IMG/VR virus record: IMGVR_UViG_3300031951_000573
Location: 1-36,681 of that record
Origin: a virus
Length of the DNA: 36,681 nt
Direction: 5' to 3' (one strand)
Both the position numbers and the translations under genes were made by a program. The notes under the pieces were generated by a model, which worked only from the letters and a program-made list of their open reading frames with translations, was not told the origin of the DNA and ran no database searches. Positions within the stretch are counted from its first letter, which is position 1. Each line of letters begins with the position of its first letter. Shown piece by piece: positions 7,556 through 17,857 of the stretch.

Positions 7556-7770
7556 CCATTTTTTTCTAGCAATTTTAAGATATGCTGGAACTCAGATACA
7601 GTCTCGCGATAGATCGCGGCCTGCAGCTGGTCCACGTCGACCTGTCCCGAGGATACCCCCGGATACTGATCGATCATTTGTTCGAGCGTCTTGATGCGCC
7701 CTTGGTAGGTCCCGATCCGGTCCATCAGGAACAGTTTCGGGTCGTTTCTTATAAAGTCCGTAGGTGTCAT
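7552..7770 (-). CDS. Small hypothetical, probably early, protein
   Basis: A 72-residue, mostly helical and soluble protein (MTPTDFIRNDPKLFLMDRIG at the start; FQHILKLLEKNG at the end). It is the first gene of the leftward block and follows a promoter-leader cassette that is nearly the same as two on the plus strand. In its leader an ATG at 7790 opens a 7-codon reading frame (MAMETEI) that ends on the start codon of this gene (ATGA), so coupling is possible. No family recognised. Confidence 0.65.
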   Translation of the reverse strand: MTPTDFIRNDPKLFLMDRIGTYQGRIKTLEQMIDQYPGVSSGQVDVDQLQAAIYRETVSEFQHILKLLEKNG

Positions 7771-7797
7771 ATTTCTGTTTCCATTGCCATTATCTAG

Positions 7798-7826
7798 ATC
7801 TTATACCGGTCTGGGGAAAATGTCAA
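7798..7826 (-). promoter_or_regulatory. Early promoter of the leftward block (cassette copy 1)
   Basis: On the minus strand: TTGACA (7821-7826), 17-bp spacer, TAAGAT (7798-7803), then CTAGATAATGGCAAT. The -35 is preceded by CTGG, as in the plus-strand copies at 7990 and 8254. An A/T tract lies upstream of the -35 on the far side, a possible UP element. Confidence 0.75.
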
Positions 7827-7871
7827 CCAGAAAGTGCACTTTTTTCAAAAAAAAAAATTAGTCAATAGAAT

Positions 7872-7960
7872 CAATGGGTTATGCCGCGGCCGGAAAAAAC
7901 CCTTATATTTCAATGGGTTAGTCCGAAGCCCAGAAAAACCCTTATATCTCAATGGCTTAA
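7872..7960. repeat. Two 39-bp tandem repeats between divergent early promoters
   Basis: Unit 1 is 7872-7910, unit 2 is 7911-7949, and an 11-base partial third copy follows (7950-7960). By eye the units differ at 8 of 39 positions. Each contains GGGTT and AACCC as an inverted repeat around a GC-rich core and ends in TTATAT. They sit between outward-facing promoters whose -35 ends are at 7826 and 7990. The whole gap 7771-8046 holds no other gene. The repeats may be paired terminators, protein-binding iterons or part of a replication origin; the sequence does not decide. Confidence 0.7.
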
Positions 7961-12706: not shown

Positions 12707-12946
12707 ATGGCAAACTATACTTTCTTAGACACCAAGACAGACAAAGAGTTCGACATTGACATGCCTATATCTGAGCTTGACGACTACAAAGCTCGCAATC
12801 CCCACCTAGAACAGATCATCTCCCGTGCACCCGCGCTCGCGGACCCATCCCGATTAGGCATAAGAAAGCCTGATGCGGGTTTTCGTGATGTTCTAAAGAG
12901 GATCAAGAAGGCTAGTGGGAGGAGTAACAAGATCAACACTTGGTAG
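12707..12946 (+). CDS. Small conserved phage protein, FmdB-like without cysteines
   Basis: A 79-residue protein of a type common in T4-like phages: MANYTFLDTKTDKEFDIDMP, then ISELDDYKARNPHLEQIISR, APALADPSRLG and the ending GFRDVLKRIKKASGRSNKIN. Such proteins are sometimes labelled FmdB-like regulators, but the zinc-binding cysteines of true FmdB proteins are absent here. Function unknown. It begins four bases after the previous stop. Confidence 0.65.
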   Translation: MANYTFLDTKTDKEFDIDMPISELDDYKARNPHLEQIISRAPALADPSRLGIRKPDAGFRDVLKRIKKASGRSNKINTW

Positions 12947-12957
12947 AAGGGTACCGC

Positions 12958-13746
12958 ATGGATAAGCTATCTCGCGCTGAAAAAAGACTACAAAAAGCAC
13001 AGAGGCGACAGGAGCAGCAGGAAAGAAAGAACCACCTAGAGTTAAAAAGCGTAACACCTAAGACGGTAAACCAAGAAAACATATTCAGAGAGTTCTGCAA
13101 CGGCAAGAACTTACTCATCCATGGACTTCCCGGAACGGGCAAATCGTTCCTATCAGTGTATCTCGCGCTCAATGAATTGACGCGCTACAGAGACTTCAAG
13201 AAGATTGTAATAGTCAGGTCGGTCGTGCCGTCGCGCGACATGGGATTCCTTCCCGGATCTGTGAAAGAAAAAGCGGCGGTCTACGAAGCACCCTACCAAT
13301 CTATAGTTCAGGAGCTCTACGGTCGAGGCGACGCGTATGAGATGCTCAAGGCGAAGGGTGTCATCGAGTTCACCACATCGTCGTTCCTTCGCGGAGTCAC
13401 CATCGACAACGCGATCGTCATCGTCGACGAGTGTCAGAACATGACGTATCACGAGCTTTGCACCATCGTCACCCGCATGGGCAAGCACTCGAAGATCGTG
13501 TTCTGCGGAGACTACAAGCAGTCCGACCTCAAGTACGACGACGAGAGGGTAGGCATAGTGCACTTCATGAAGATCATCGCGTCGATGAAGCGATACTTCA
13601 CAACAATCGAAATGGAAGCCGATGACATCGTCAGGTCCGGGCTCGTTAAAGAGTTCATCATTCGAAGAGATGCGTACGAGAACCCAAGGGTCGTTGTCGT
13701 TCCATCCGCTTACTCGGATTCTCGAGAACCGAAAGTCGTTCACTAA
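12958..13746 (+). CDS. phoH: PhoH-like P-loop ATPase
   Basis: A 262-residue protein. After a basic coiled N-terminus (residues 1-30, many Arg, Gln and Lys), the Walker A motif GLPGTGKS lies at 56-63, the Walker B in IVIVDECQNMT, and the sensor motif KIVFCGDYKQSD follows, as in PhoH and related phage ATPases. PhoH proteins are widespread in marine and alphaproteobacterial phages; roles in RNA metabolism are proposed but not settled. ATG 12958 with GAAGGG 8 bases upstream is preferred to the TTG at 12940. Its 3' end is overlapped by the nuclease gene. Confidence 0.9.
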   Translation: MDKLSRAEKRLQKAQRRQEQQERKNHLELKSVTPKTVNQENIFREFCNGKNLLIHGLPGTGKSFLSVYLALNELTRYRDFKKIVIVRSVVPSRDMGFLPGSVKEKAAVYEAPYQSIVQELYGRGDAYEMLKAKGVIEFTTSSFLRGVTIDNAIVIVDECQNMTYHELCTIVTRMGKHSKIVFCGDYKQSDLKYDDERVGIVHFMKIIASMKRYFTTIEMEADDIVRSGLVKEFIIRRDAYENPRVVVVPSAYSDSREPKVVH

Positions 13747-14404
13747 GACTTCTCTCGAGCTCCTCGCGGTCGAGCTCGAGCAGGTCAACACCGAGGCCGG
13801 CAGGTTCTATAAGACTCCCGCCGGCCTCCTCTACCCATCCGTCACGACCGTGACCGGACTCCTCGGCCGCGCGAGCATACAGGCTTGGCGCAAGAAGGTC
13901 GGTGAGGAGAAGGCGAACGAGATCTCGCAGCAGGCGGCCAATCGCGGTACGCGCATCCATCAGTTGGCTGAAGACTACATCAACGGCGACGAGATCGACG
14001 TCAGCAAGTATACACACTACGACGCCGAGATGTTTGAAGACCTCAAGCAGGTGCTCGATGAATCAGTCGACAACGTCTTCATGCAGGAGACGCGGATGTA
14101 CTCAGACTACGTCCGCATGGCGGGCACCGTCGACATGGTCGCGGAGTTCGAGGGCAAGCGATGCGTGGTCGACTTCAAGACTTCAAGGAAGCTGAAGCGT
14201 TCGGAGGACATCCTCAACTACTACTGCCAAGCGACCGCGTACGCGATCATGTTCGAGGAGATGACGGGCGTTCCGGTCTCTAGGTTCGCCATCATCATAG
14301 CCGTCGACGGCGAGGGAATCCAGATCTTTCGCGGAAAGAGGGACGACTACGTAGACACCCTGATGATGCTCAGGAAGCAGTACGACGACGAAAATGGCTA
14401 TTGA
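13670..14404 (+). CDS. PD-(D/E)XK (RecB/Cas4-type) exonuclease
   Basis: A protein of up to 244 residues with the RecB-family nuclease motifs: the helix RGTRIHQLAEDYINGD, the core Asp in GTVDMVAEF and the D-F-K of CVVDFKTSRK, followed by QATAYAIMFEE. The N-terminal segment RFYKTPAGLLYPSVTTVTG is typical of a T4-like cyanophage exonuclease group. It probably acts in recombination or host DNA degradation. The start is uncertain: ATG 13622, ATG 13670 and TTG 13694 all fall inside phoH and none has an ideal ribosome site; 13670 is a compromise. The stop TGA (14402-14404) is inside the -35 of the tmRNA promoter. Confidence 0.8.
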   Translation: MRTRTQGSLSFHPLTRILENRKSFTKTSLELLAVELEQVNTEAGRFYKTPAGLLYPSVTTVTGLLGRASIQAWRKKVGEEKANEISQQAANRGTRIHQLAEDYINGDEIDVSKYTHYDAEMFEDLKQVLDESVDNVFMQETRMYSDYVRMAGTVDMVAEFEGKRCVVDFKTSRKLKRSEDILNYYCQATAYAIMFEEMTGVPVSRFAIIIAVDGEGIQIFRGKRDDYVDTLMMLRKQYDDENGY

Positions 14405-14431
14405 CAAATTATTCTACATGTGGTATAAATA
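14401..14431 (+). promoter_or_regulatory. tmRNA promoter with both host-type and late-type elements
   Basis: TTGACA (14401-14406), 17-bp spacer, then TATAAATA (14424-14431). The first six bases of the second box (TATAAA) are a good sigma70 -10 at ideal spacing, and the full eight bases are the T4 late promoter. The RNA could therefore be made from the start of infection and also late. The expected start is near 14436. Confidence 0.75.
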
Positions 14432-14444
14432 ATAATGCTGATGT

Positions 14445-14503
14445 CGTTGACGGAAGTAGAATAAACATTCTGGACGCGGGGGCAGTACCCGCCGCCTCCA
14501 CCA
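14445..14503 (+). ncRNA. tmRNA acceptor piece
   Basis: The 3' tRNA-like half. The T arm is GCGGG (14476-14480), loop GGCAGTA (14481-14487), CCCGC (14488-14492), followed at once by the acceptor strand (14493-14499), discriminator A14500 and encoded CCA (14501-14503). The 7-base loop differs from the usual TTCGANN of tRNAs. Before the T arm, AGAAT and ATTCT (14458-14471) form a small inverted repeat. The 5' end is an estimate. Confidence 0.85.
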
Positions 14504-14619
14504 CGGATACACTGGTCGTTGGGTGCAACAGTCCTCCTATTATAAAGAGGGTATGGCGGAAGAGACTAGCATATAACTGTTGCACTGATCAAAGCGGTGT
14601 CTCACAGTGTATCTTTGAT
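14504..14619 (+). other. tmRNA intervening segment, probably removed by processing
   Basis: The 116 bases between the encoded CCA and the mature 5' end of the coding piece. A perfect 10-bp inverted repeat (GTGCAACAGT 14523-14532; ACTGTTGCAC 14576-14585) and a second of 7 bp (ATCAAAG 14588-14594; CTTTGAT 14613-14619) abutting the mature end are visible. In known permuted tmRNAs this segment is excised, which produces the two pieces. RNase P would be expected to form the coding-piece 5' end. Confidence 0.75.
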
Positions 14620-14766
14620 GGGGGCGAATATTTAGGATCGACAGGTGTAGTAAAGACTGGCCCGAGACAAAAGCAACAACGTTAAATGCAAACGATAACA
14701 ATGCATCTCGTTACGCCCTAGCGGCCTAACATGAGCCCGAGGGGAGCTTGGAAACAGAATCCCCTC
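14620..14766 (+). ncRNA. tmRNA coding piece
   Basis: Starts with acceptor strand GGGGGCG, then a D-arm-like region with GGATCGACAGGTG (14635-14647), then a region able to form the pseudoknot before the tag, the tag frame (14688-14729) and a 3' hairpin. Its 3' end is placed at the base of that hairpin as an estimate. Confidence 0.85.
14688..14729 (+). other. tmRNA tag reading frame
   Basis: GCA resume codon at 14688-14690, then codons for NDNNASRYALAA and TAA at 14727-14729. The tag ANDNNASRYALAA begins with the A-N-D-N of alphaproteobacterial tags and ends in ALAA, the part read by ClpXP and ClpAP. Confidence 0.9.
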
Positions 14767-14777
14767 ACTTTCTTTTT
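14739..14777 (+). terminator. Terminator-like hairpin after tmRNA
   Basis: GAGGGGA (14739-14745) and TCCCCTC (14760-14766) form a 7-bp stem with a 14-base loop, followed by ACTTTCTTTTT. The stem may also be the 3'-terminal stem of the coding piece. The next gene starts at 14786. Confidence 0.65.
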
Positions 14778-14785
14778 GGAATCAC

Positions 14786-16108
14786 ATGAAAACATTCTGC
14801 CCACTACCTTGGAACGGTGTATCCGTACGGAACAACGGCGACCTTCGAGTCTGCTGCAACGCGAATTCATACACAAAGAACCAAGGCATCCTTCGAAAGA
14901 AGGACGGTAAGCCCTACAACGTAGGACGCGACGACATAGGTGAGTCGCGCAACTCAGACGTTCTCAAGGACATCCGCGTCTCGATGCTGCACGGAGAGTG
15001 GCACGAGGAGTGCACTAGGTGTAGGCTCGAGGAAGAAGCCGGCATCAAGTCGCGACGCGAGTATGAGAACGAGATCTGGCCGGACGTCAAGCACGAGGTT
15101 CTCAATAAGACCGACGACGACGGGACGATCGACACCGACGACATCAACCTCGACTACTTCGACCTTCGCTACGGAAACTTCTGCAACCTCAAGTGCAGGA
15201 TGTGCGGACCAACCGACTCACATATGTGGTACGGCGACCACGTAGCGACGACTGGATACACGGGATTCACAGACTCACACGGCCGCGTTCAACTCACCAA
15301 GAACGCGAAGGGCAAGTGGTCGACGAACGACTACGACTGGTTTCAGGGATCCAACTTCTACTGGGATCAGTTTGAGAAGCACACGAAGAACGCCACGAAG
15401 TTCTACATCGTGGGCGGTGAGCCGCTCATCATCGAGGAGCACATTCAGTCTCTCGAGCGGCTCATCGCCTCAGGTAGGGCACACGAGGTTGAGATAGAGT
15501 ACAACACCAACCTGACGAACGTCACCGACAGGATCATCGAGCTCTGGAAGAACTTCAAAGAAATCAGAATCGGTGCGTCGATCGACGGCTTCGGTGAAGT
15601 GTTTGAGTATCAAAGGTTTCCGGCGAACTGGGACCAAGTGTATAAGAACATGCAGAAGCTCGACTCGACACCGGGACTCAACGTCGTGTCGTGGTTCGCC
15701 TTCACCGTGACACCGTTCAACATCCTTCACCTCCCTGAGTTCATGAAGTGGAAGCTGACCGACTCCGGACTGAAGAGCTTCAACTCAATAAAGCAGGCGC
15801 GAAAGATCGTCAGCCACCACATGTGCCACAGGCCTAAGCACTACAACGTCAAGTGTCTGCCCGACGACTTCAAGCGCGTAGTCGATAAGAAGTTCGCCGA
15901 GTACAAAGACTGGGCTATTCGCAACCAACCCGAGTTTATATCCGCACAGTTCATCAAGCTCCTCGACGGAGTTTCGAGCTTCATGAACGCCGAGAGCTAC
16001 CACGACGAGCACTTCGACAAGTTCGTCGACCTGACGAAGAAGCTCGACGAGCTGCGCGGTCAAAACATTCTAGACGTCGTCCCAGAGTTCAAGGAGTATT
16101 TCAAGTGA
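14786..16108 (+). CDS. Radical SAM protein with twitch/SPASM-like cysteine motif
   Basis: A 440-residue protein. The [4Fe-4S] motif C-x3-C-x2-C is at Cys133, Cys137 and Cys140 (FCNLKCRMC). The N-terminus has Cys5 in FCPLPWNGVSVRNNGDLRVCC, with Cys23/Cys24 and later CTRC, resembling the auxiliary cluster of twitch/SPASM domains but placed before the radical core. GGEP (IVGGEPLI) is the usual SAM-binding strand, and EIRIGASIDGFGE is a later core strand. Proteins of this type occur in T4-like cyanophages and their substrate is unknown; SPASM relatives often modify peptides. It is the first gene after the tmRNA and overlaps gene 33 (GTGA). The ribosome site is weak (GGA). Confidence 0.85.
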   Translation: MKTFCPLPWNGVSVRNNGDLRVCCNANSYTKNQGILRKKDGKPYNVGRDDIGESRNSDVLKDIRVSMLHGEWHEECTRCRLEEEAGIKSRREYENEIWPDVKHEVLNKTDDDGTIDTDDINLDYFDLRYGNFCNLKCRMCGPTDSHMWYGDHVATTGYTGFTDSHGRVQLTKNAKGKWSTNDYDWFQGSNFYWDQFEKHTKNATKFYIVGGEPLIIEEHIQSLERLIASGRAHEVEIEYNTNLTNVTDRIIELWKNFKEIRIGASIDGFGEVFEYQRFPANWDQVYKNMQKLDSTPGLNVVSWFAFTVTPFNILHLPEFMKWKLTDSGLKSFNSIKQARKIVSHHMCHRPKHYNVKCLPDDFKRVVDKKFAEYKDWAIRNQPEFISAQFIKLLDGVSSFMNAESYHDEHFDKFVDLTKKLDELRGQNILDVVPEFKEYFK

Positions 16109-16341
16109 AGATCAACAACCTAAAGGTTCCAATCGAGATGATTCAGGAGATCGAGGTCATCGTGAAGAAGCGCAACCTTGAGTACATCGACGCTGTGATC
16201 TACTACTGTGAGAAGAACAACCTCGAGATCGAGACGATGGCTGAGATCATCAAGCAGAACTCCGCGATCAAGTCGAAGATCCAGATCGAGGCTGAGAACT
16301 TAAAGATGGTGAAGAGGACTTCGGCGCGGCTACCTATATGA
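16105..16341 (+). CDS. 33: Late transcription coactivator gp33-like
   Basis: A 78-residue protein with the pattern of T4-like gp33: EYIDAVIYYCEKNNLEIETM, then AEIIKQNSAIKSKIQIEAEN and the C-terminal SARLPI, the short hydrophobic end that in gp33 binds the sliding clamp. It bridges RNA polymerase and the clamp so that late promoters fire on replicating DNA. Starts at GTG 16105 within the previous stop. It supports the late promoter calls in this window. Confidence 0.88.
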   Translation: MKINNLKVPIEMIQEIEVIVKKRNLEYIDAVIYYCEKNNLEIETMAEIIKQNSAIKSKIQIEAENLKMVKRTSARLPI

Positions 16342-16943
16342 CACAGTTTGAAGCCTACCAGCTGTACAACGCCCTGCACCTGCACTTCACGCAGGACGGC
16401 TACGACTACCATAAGTATCGCGGAAAGACGCGGGTCACGGAGCACTCGCTCGACGTTCGACCCGATAAGTACATGTTCTACAAGCTGTCGAAGCACGAGG
16501 ATCCCCTGATCTACCTCGTGTCAAACTTCTCAGAGAACGCCAAGTTCTACTCACGCGATATGTTCAGCGTCAACGCCGACCTCAACTACAACGAGTTCCT
16601 TCGGCGACAACAATCCTTGACATATCAGTTCGAGTGTGATATAGATAATCTATTGGAAGACTTCGACAAGAACTTTGAGGTTCCAGACGGAGACTATCCC
16701 CACCTTCTCAAGCTGCTCACCCGTAAGAAGATCAGCAAAGAGAGTTTCATAATCATCCAAGACTGCGTACGCTTCTTCGGTGCATGGAACAAACGGATCA
16801 CCGACCCGGTGCTCTGGCCTAAGATCGCGATGAACTGCAGGAAGCTACACCCTTTCCTTAAGTACGATCGAGATAAATACCGTGGGATCTTGCAAAACAA
16901 GTTCTCACACACAACGTATACACCGCAACACAACGGAGAATAA
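16338..16943 (+). CDS. 59: Replicative helicase loader gp59-like
   Basis: A 201-residue protein in the T4 gp59 pattern: MTQFEAYQLYNALHLHFTQD at the start, RVTEHSLDVRPDKYMFYKLS, then NFSENAKFYSRDMF and a helical C-terminal half. T4 gp59 (217 residues) loads gp41 helicase on gp32-coated forks. It sits directly before gene 32, its binding partner, as in many T4 relatives. It overlaps gene 33 (ATGA). A promoter-like sequence is embedded in its coding region at 16617-16645. Confidence 0.88.
   Translation: MTQFEAYQLYNALHLHFTQDGYDYHKYRGKTRVTEHSLDVRPDKYMFYKLSKHEDPLIYLVSNFSENAKFYSRDMFSVNADLNYNEFLRRQQSLTYQFECDIDNLLEDFDKNFEVPDGDYPHLLKLLTRKKISKESFIIIQDCVRFFGAWNKRITDPVLWPKIAMNCRKLHPFLKYDRDKYRGILQNKFSHTTYTPQHNGE
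16617..16645 (+). promoter_or_regulatory. Internal promoter candidate upstream of gene 32
   Basis: TTGACA (16617-16622), 17-bp spacer, TATAGA (16640-16645), within gene 59 in a locally AT-rich patch. It would allow extra expression of the abundantly needed ssDNA-binding protein beginning about 300 bases downstream. Confidence 0.5.
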
Positions 16944-16945
16944 AC

Positions 16946-17857
16946 ATGGCAACATCATTCGACTCACTCAAACAGAATCGTAAGTCAGCGTTCGATAAAC
17001 TTACGAGCGAGCTCAACAAGCTCAGCACCAACCAGCAAGACTCATCCGACGACAACTATTGGAAGCCCGAGGTCGACAAGGCCGGCAACGGCTACGCGGT
17101 CATCCGTTTCCTCCCGCCTCCGCAGGGCGAGGACGTTCCGTTCGTTCGCATCTGGGATCACGGCTTTCAGGGCGACGGCGGCTGGTACATCGAGAAGTCG
17201 CTGACGACCATCGGTAAGAACGATCCGGTCGGCGAGCTCAACAGCAAGCTCTGGAACTCCGGCGTCGAAGCCGACAAGGAGATCGCGCGCAAGCAGAAGC
17301 GTCGCCTCGCTTATCACTCGAACATCTACGTCGTCAAGGATTCTGCGAATCCAGCGAACGAGGGCAAGGTGTTCCTGTATAAGTACGGCAAGAAGATCTT
17401 CGATAAGATCAACGAAGCCATGCACCCTCAGTTCGAGGGCGAAGTGGCGATCAATCCGTTCGATCTTTGGGAAGGCGCGAACTTCAAGCTGAAGATTCGC
17501 AACGTCGAGGGCTACCGCAACTACGACAAGTCTGAGTTCGACGATCCGGCCCCGCTCCTCAGCGACGACGATAAGCTCGAAGCTATTTGGAAGTCGGAAC
17601 ACTCGCTCAGCGAACTCATCGATCCTAAGAACTTCAAGTCCTACGACGAACTGAAGGCGCGCTTGTCGCGCGCACTCGGCGTCGGTGTCGAAGCCGCACG
17701 TGCATCTGCACCTAAGATCGACGAGGACGAGGCGTTCCCGGTGCCGCAGAAAGCTGCAGCGGCACCTAAGGTTGAGTCGGCCGCACCTTCGTGGAATAGC
17801 TCCACGGATGACGACGACGATGACCTCAGCTTCTTTAAGAAGATGGCGAACGACTAA
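16946..17857 (+). CDS. 32: Single-stranded DNA-binding protein gp32
   Basis: A 303-residue T4-type gp32. The N-terminal basic region (LKQNRKSAFDKLTSELNKLS) gives cooperativity, the core has GYAVIRFLPPPQGEDVPFVR, WDHGFQGDGGWYIEKSLTTI and VFLYKYGKKIFDKI, and the C-terminus is a highly acidic tail (DDDDDDLSFFKKMAND) for protein contacts. The zinc ligands of T4 gp32 are absent: there is no cysteine, and the loop contains SANPANEGK instead. It coats ssDNA for replication and recombination. GGAG stands about 8 bases before the ATG. The stop interlocks with the convergent tape measure gene. Confidence 0.93.
   Translation: MATSFDSLKQNRKSAFDKLTSELNKLSTNQQDSSDDNYWKPEVDKAGNGYAVIRFLPPPQGEDVPFVRIWDHGFQGDGGWYIEKSLTTIGKNDPVGELNSKLWNSGVEADKEIARKQKRRLAYHSNIYVVKDSANPANEGKVFLYKYGKKIFDKINEAMHPQFEGEVAINPFDLWEGANFKLKIRNVEGYRNYDKSEFDDPAPLLSDDDKLEAIWKSEHSLSELIDPKNFKSYDELKARLSRALGVGVEAARASAPKIDEDEAFPVPQKAAAAPKVESAAPSWNSSTDDDDDDLSFFKKMAND

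Follow-up and report, generated by a model that had tools for sequence, protein, structure and literature searches.

A circularly permuted tmRNA gene at a conserved locus of T4-like phages, with an exchanged intervening segment

RESULTS

Organization of the locus

The window (the whole stretch of DNA analyzed, a virus record of 36,681 bases) contains genes for a PhoH-like ATPase and a PD-(D/E)XK exonuclease, followed by a tmRNA gene, a radical SAM gene, and a gp33-gp59-gp32 cluster (Table 1). This cluster, together with PhoH and T4-type baseplate and tail-tube genes, marks the window phage as a T4-like (Kyanoviridae-related) myovirus, as the first-pass annotation had held; it is a freshwater virus of bacteria. 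Closely similar copies of the radical SAM gene occupied this position only in L005, L006, L008, L009, and the cut L004, which are the nearest relatives; elsewhere its relatives were weak.

Table 1. Features of the tmRNA locus in the window
Feature	Position	Strand	Remarks
PhoH-like ATPase	12940..13746	+	PF02562, E 4.1e-45; upstream locus marker
PD-(D/E)XK exonuclease (phrog_298)	13622..14404	+	immediate upstream neighbor of tmRNA
TTGACA, sigma70-type −35 box	14401..14406	+	17 nt before TATAAATA box
TATAAATA, T4-type late promoter box	14424..14431	+	first six bases double as near-consensus −10 box
tmRNA acceptor piece	14436..14503	+	P2 3' strand, T-arm, acceptor 3' strand; 5' end placed from the promoter
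T-arm	14476..14492	+	within acceptor piece
Acceptor 3' strand CGCCUCC	14493..14499	+	read from the sequence
Discriminator A, then encoded CCA	14500, 14501..14503	+	
Intervening segment (ITS), family A	14504..14619	+	folded exchanged cassette; presumably removed in maturation
ITS closing stem, 5' strand GGATACACTG	14505..14514	+	pairs with CAGTGTATCT
ITS closing stem, 3' strand CAGTGTATCT	14605..14614	+	followed by TTGAT, then mature 5' end
tmRNA coding piece	14620..14773	+	P2 5' strand, no pseudoknot 1, tag, terminal stem; 3' end approximate
Acceptor 5' strand GGGGGCG	14620..14626	+	read from the sequence
Tag frame ANDNNASRYALAA and stop TAA	14688..14729	+	GCA..GCC 14688-14726; stop 14727-14729
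Terminal stem GAGGGGA/TCCCCTC	14739..14766	+	encloses conserved GCUUGGAAACAGAA loop; covaries; T-rich run after
Radical SAM protein	14786..16108	+	between tmRNA and gp33
gp33 late-transcription coactivator	16105..16341	+	PF16805, E 4.8e-15
gp59 helicase loader	16338..16943	+	phrog_269, E 1.4e-46
gp32 single-stranded DNA binding protein	16946..17857	+	phrog_224, E 2.6e-120

Identification of the tmRNA gene

Searching the window with Rfam (Infernal cmscan), the check proposed in the first-pass annotation, gave a match to RF01849 (alpha_tmRNA) at 14397-14769 on the plus strand with 110.5 bits (E 1.6e-29), about twice the gathering cut-off of 50 bits. RF04321 (tmRNA_permuted) likewise matched at 14442-14729 with 95.4 bits (E 1.9e-17) and a cut-off of 47 bits. 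ARAGORN reported no tmRNA in the window, although two Rfam models match, and the gene would thus escape standard annotation. When the sequence was read, the acceptor half with its encoded CCA preceded the coding half, the two 7-base acceptor strands paired at all seven positions with a G-U at position 3 (G3-U70), and the tag frame encoded ANDNNASRYALAA; each of these had been claimed from the letters alone and was upheld. The model match, the order of the halves, the acceptor stem, the CCA, the tag frame, and a covarying P2 helix are all those of a permuted alpha-type tmRNA; pseudoknot 1, usually present upstream of the tag in tmRNAs, was not found in the window copy. The Rfam matches and the acceptor and tag anatomy confirmed that 14436-14777 is a phage-encoded, circularly permuted, two-piece tmRNA gene.

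Distribution among related phages

Relatives were sampled as 80 viral contigs with a related PhoH. A permuted tmRNA was found in 65 of them, always on the same strand; 63 scored above the Rfam cut-off and two (L028 and L061) were weak, falling below it. The gene lay mostly 0.7–2.2 kb past PhoH, with three copies at 3.8, 4.7, and 9.6 kb, and it came after the exonuclease wherever a contig held both genes. The 15 contigs without a tmRNA end 0–1,326 nt after PhoH, so close that none demonstrates absence. Genes gp33, gp59, and gp32 come after the tmRNA in the window's group; they were not detected within the locus in the L068–L082 group. Pelagibacter phage HTVC008M has its tmRNA at the same place, between the exonuclease and gp33. 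Because the locus is conserved across relatives, we conclude that the tmRNA is a resident, near-core gene of the lineage. The earlier description of such a copy as unusual is not supported: T4-like phage Melnitz has a published two-piece tmRNA, and the gene is near-core at one locus here.

In cyanophage S-8S29 the exonuclease adjoins gp33 with no tmRNA between them, and RF04321 was absent from P-SSM5, two marine single-cell phage contigs, phiM12, phiM9, and P10VF. Some cyanophages share this gene order and have no tmRNA, so the gene is not a requirement for T4-like phages in general; it is confined to some T4-like branches and missing from others with the same gene order.

Other permuted tmRNAs were also observed. 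A Rhizobium rosettiformans contig (L148) carries, besides a host ssrA of 306.8 bits, a second permuted tmRNA near 7579-7946 (87.6 bits with RF01849; tag ...EASNDNVAFEDIRVAA) that adjoins portal, DNA ligase, and exonuclease genes; this is a prophage or a contig of phage origin that carries a tmRNA of its own. Low-scoring second copies besides the main host ssrA were seen in Camelimonas fluminis (L144, near 343-740) and in L142 (near 843-874), at 112 and 124 bits. Erythrobacter phage vB_EliS-L02 (L002) has an unannotated permuted tmRNA at 75768-76055 (91.9 bits) without the window's T4-like locus. A contig labeled Euryarchaeota archaeon SP339 (L140) has T4-like gp59 and gp32 near a permuted tmRNA; it probably comes from a phage and was binned with an archaeal genome.

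A late-promoter box upstream of the tmRNA

The first-pass annotation had given the gene its own promoter, and the case for one proved stronger than was stated there. Upstream of the gene, a sigma70-type −35 box is followed by TATAAATA, the established T4 late promoter box. This box occurred 6 times in the window, compared with 0.22 expected, and an exact copy was present in the 90 nt preceding 63 of 67 tmRNAs, compared with 1.8% of random 90-mers from the same loci. Being both enriched and placed upstream of genes, it has the properties of a T4-type late promoter. TTGACA (with up to two mismatches) was found 17 nt upstream of the box at 34 of 42 distinct tmRNA promoters; among the remaining TATAAATA sites of these loci, 3 of 58 had it. 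The Fisher test for this pairing at tmRNA sites gave p = 1e-15, a value that is overstated because the sites are kin sequences and not independent events. A sigma70 scan of the window missed the tmRNA promoter, because the scan demands a T at the last −10 position. The arrangement suggests a composite promoter that would serve the host polymerase first and the late machinery thereafter.

Absence of pseudoknot 1

Nearly all bacterial tmRNAs possess pseudoknot 1. In the window the resume codon GCA is located 68 nt from the mature 5' end, and in most of its relatives this distance is about 62–68 nt (short forms). It is longer in three hosts (84–86 nt), in Melnitz (82 nt), and in the L068–L082 group (mostly 85–87 nt). 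About 18 nt are left between P2 and the tag in the short forms; the long forms hold UGGU..ACCA / GCG..CGC there. Pseudoknot 1 has thus been lost in the window's clade, of which 38 of 42 rows in the PhoH tree were short-form. Two contigs, L008 and L059, keep the pseudoknot 1 segment yet nest inside the short clade in that tree, which points to exchange of tmRNA genes.

To our knowledge, tagging activity without pseudoknot 1 is known only from engineered E. coli tmRNA; such a tmRNA, with the pseudoknot swapped for single-stranded RNA, still tags in vivo according to work cited in PMC4236655. Natural tmRNAs without it are rare. Mitochondria lack pseudoknot 1, and its second helix is absent in Oenococcus oeni and in a partial plastid sequence (PMC1168896). 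Because these rare tmRNAs lack it, its absence makes the window copy a variant and does not exclude it from the tmRNAs.

Conservation of helices and tag

All 66 parsed intact copies, a number that leaves out L061 (spurious parse) and L041 (not parsed), keep 7/7 acceptor pairs and G3-U70. The acceptor helix itself occurred in at least six variants (GGGGGCG, GGGGGUG, GGGCCGG, GGGGUCG, GGGGACG, and GGGGAUG). Among 24 distinct short-form copies, covariation was seen in P2, the T-stem, and the terminal stem enclosing GCUUGGAAACAGAA; the acceptor stem had no broken cells. These compensatory changes in tmRNA helices indicate that the RNA is under selection.

In a larger set, 75 of 76 distinct parsed tags ended in AA, the 76 including a few host tags or tags over-read upstream. 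The tags differed among phages in their central part and near the end (RLAA, KIAA, FAA). A search of 26 phage records, several of them 100–202 kb long, detected no SmpB gene; its control was positive in 10 of 14 named genomes. For the phages searched, host SmpB must therefore serve.

Fold and exchange of the intervening segment

The ITS of the window, 116 nt between the CCA and the coding half, folds better than its shuffles (z −2.75). In 42 of 46 distinct ITS, compared with 5.8% of shuffles, the regions near the two ends paired in a closing stem of 7 bp or more. It starts 0–4 nt after the CCA and ends 4–8 nt before the mature 5' end, with UUGAU usually next. Hosts L167, L168, and L170 have the same layout, so the stem is ancestral; it is probably a processing element.

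Similarity of the ITS did not follow that of PhoH. With L029 and L031, the window shares 97% identity in the ITS and 65% in PhoH; with L005, PhoH identity is 96%, yet the two ITS are unlike. Unrelated ITS were also found at 98–100% PhoH identity in four pairs (L017/L018, L055/L056, L020/L026, and L019/L021). The exchanged block comprised the tRNA-like domain plus the ITS in L021/L023 and L055/L056, these two being contiguous because the gene is permuted, and was nearly the ITS alone in L020/L026. Exact-core searches of IMG/VR located the window's family (A) in three different tmRNA backgrounds; for a second family there were at least six. Both were always directly after CCACCA, and identity stopped at the acceptor strands even where these differ; no match to the window ITS core was found outside a tmRNA, all exact matches of the two families in the viral collection following CCACCA. 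In total, clustering at 72% identity divided 104 distinct ITS, including a few from host and other phage genes, into 62 families, with some loose groupings among the larger ones.

Simple neutral decay of the ITS fails to account for 97% identity at 65% PhoH identity and for unrelated ITS at 98–100%. Assembly chimerism is an unlikely source of the mosaics, in which 7/7 acceptor pairs are preserved on the two sides of the ITS; the cassettes, moreover, come from many different metagenomes.

Consensus folds of nine ITS families preserved almost every pair; seven of the nine had double changes. Covariation was also examined with a partner-free test, in which the fold of one member was taken, pairs were counted in the other member, and substitutions were redistributed. 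Families D, E, and I had compensatory changes above chance (p ≤0.0135 in every comparison), and the result for families B and F rests on one double change each. In the window's family, 26 of 26 interior pairs were kept with too few changes, and the interior test was not significant (p 0.07 and 0.16). Family C had 98.7% of cells paired and a covariation score above all shuffles, with double changes in only two pairs. The compensatory changes in some families indicate that at least some ITS cassettes are selected folds. We conclude that the ITS is a folded RNA cassette swapped among these phages.

Further features were seen in single segments. Two contigs (L048 and L060) have a tandem arrangement in which the ITS is followed by a second GGGGGCG, another segment, and then the coding half. 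Hairpins like a tRNA T-arm (GGUUUGARUCC, GUUCGAGUCCC) occur in the ITS of L008, L042, L059, L223, and L236, with an additional acceptor-like GCAAGG/CCUUGC stem in L059 and L223. The A+T-rich ITS of L073, L078, and Melnitz contain short candidate open frames, two with a GGAG ribosome-binding site; the window ITS has no short reading frame of note. No known RNA family was found inside the ITS in 20 loci.

DISCUSSION

Proposed role of the phage tmRNA

Beyond what the first-pass annotation had noticed, the locus has a late-promoter element, lacks pseudoknot 1, and has compensated helices and an exchanged ITS cassette. Our interpretation, which we consider likely, is that this is a genuine alphaproteobacterial-type permuted tmRNA, resident in an aquatic T4-like clade and serving trans-translation in infection. 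We infer its timing, processing, charging, tagging, and benefit to the phage as follows. Early in infection, host sigma70 RNA polymerase would transcribe the gene from the composite promoter; later, the gp55/gp33/clamp late machinery would do so. The precursor would form one long hairpin across the ITS, a separate and exchangeable folded RNA cassette by this account. Host RNase P and tRNA 3' processing would release two pieces held paired by the acceptor stem and P2. Host alanyl-tRNA synthetase would charge the tmRNA via G3-U70, and host SmpB would deliver it, since the phages tested encode none. Addition of (A)ANDNNASRYALAA to stalled chains would mark them for host proteases and free the ribosomes. 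The purpose would most likely be to keep a supply of ribosomes at a time when host DNA and mRNA are being destroyed and host ssrA has been lost or is outnumbered. The anatomy is compatible with rescue of stalled ribosomes or with replacement of a lost or titrated host tmRNA.

For the ITS, the plain reading is a compact removable spacer, and the bold reading a released RNA that might be regulatory or anti-defence. In the fullest form of the bold reading, the ITS would be a cargo slot in which a constant closing stem holds interchangeable, structured small RNAs that act alone and are released equimolar with the tmRNA, their expression being driven by a promoter active both early and late. We put this forward as a doubtful, though not far-fetched, proposal. 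If it is true, these RNAs may act, for example, against host defences or competing phages, and the tmRNA gene would be a platform for phages trading RNA modules.

Alternative explanations

A related but unlikely explanation is that selection acts mainly on the ITS, and that the tmRNA gene serves as a platform on which small structured RNA cargo is expressed and processed. This would fit the exact ends at which cassettes are exchanged, the covariation inside the ITS of some families, and segment lengths of 20–193 nt, greater than in most hosts parsed. The tmRNA helices and the tag are conserved in their own right, however, a neutral, often recombining, compactly folding spacer explains much of the rest, and the interior test for the window's own family was not significant.

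Variation of the tags in the middle and towards the end among phages could instead mean that tagging is redirected, either to another fate for phage-tagged proteins or to selective tagging of host proteins to recycle amino acids, as was proposed for Melnitz (PMC9004378). We think this quite unlikely, since the tag ends remain protease-type and the anatomy offers nothing selective for host proteins.

A decoy or inhibitor of host trans-translation, of the kind that PMC11915505 mentions as reported for the CDS-less tmRNA of DS6A, might compete for host SmpB, the phages having none, and might dispense with pseudoknot 1, which is missing in the window's clade. Such a decoy requires no tag frame, resume codon, or AA ending, yet all three are kept, and we judge this explanation improbable.

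Recent capture of a host ssrA by one phage, carried without a role, would agree with the RF01849 match and with the presence of such genes in alphaproteobacterial genomes, but is highly improbable: synteny contradicts it, the locus being fixed in those relatives that can be judged, almost every copy has the phage late-promoter box, pairing is conserved, and phage copies score about 70–137 bits with RF01849, compared with 228–307 for the main host copies.

Significance

Phage tmRNAs have so far been treated as scattered oddities. Because the gene is near-core here and has a putative composite promoter, the benefit of self-encoded ribosome rescue to a lytic phage can be tested in the cultured phages HTVC008M and Melnitz. 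A clade that keeps the tag and helices without pseudoknot 1 is a natural test of the purpose of that pseudoknot. Exchange of the ITS with exact ends, and with compensatory folds in some families, amounts to a small-RNA cassette system overlooked by annotation.

Comparison with known systems

A survey of 18,146 phage genomes found 402 phages with tmRNA genes, and 50 of 53 predicted two-piece phage tmRNAs were from marine or aquatic samples (PMC9004378); a 2025 database lists 79 unique phage tmRNAs (PMC11915505). Phage two-piece tmRNAs having already been published, the main feature of the window is of a known kind.

The T4-like Methylophilales phage Melnitz encodes a two-piece tmRNA (Buchholz et al. 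2022, PMC9004378; MZ577097). As in the window, it is permuted, lies between a PDDEXK nuclease and gp33 (gene order PhoH, PDDEXK, tmRNA, gp33, gp59, gp32), is preceded by TTGACA-17-TATAAATA, and has a closing stem in its ITS. Unlike the window, Melnitz has retained the pseudoknot 1 region, with 82 nt separating the 5' end from the tag (68 nt in the window); its ITS is 142 nt and its tag ANDNYVPVDYALAA, compared with 116 nt and ANDNNASRYALAA. A glutamine riboswitch (RF01739) is located downstream of its tmRNA, and the window gave no match to this riboswitch even at E 10. The tmRNA of HTVC008M (KC465899, 145161-145370; 90.6 bits) is also permuted and at the same locus, and differs in its tag (ANFNEYALAA), its 49-nt ITS, and its distance of 75 nt from 5' end to tag.

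Alphaproteobacterial ssrA (RF01849) shares with the window the permuted order, the type of acceptor and T-arm, the AGGATCGAC segment, the ANDN tag start, and the ACAGAA terminal motif. The window differs from it in missing the pseudoknot 1 segment (84–86 nt from 5' end to tag in hosts), in its longer exchanged ITS and phage late-promoter box, and in having no SmpB gene. Mycobacteriophage DS6A, as named in PMC11915505, has a CDS-less tmRNA reported to inhibit host tmRNA; like the window copy it is phage-borne and reduced, but it is reported to be without a tag frame, whereas the window copy keeps its tag.
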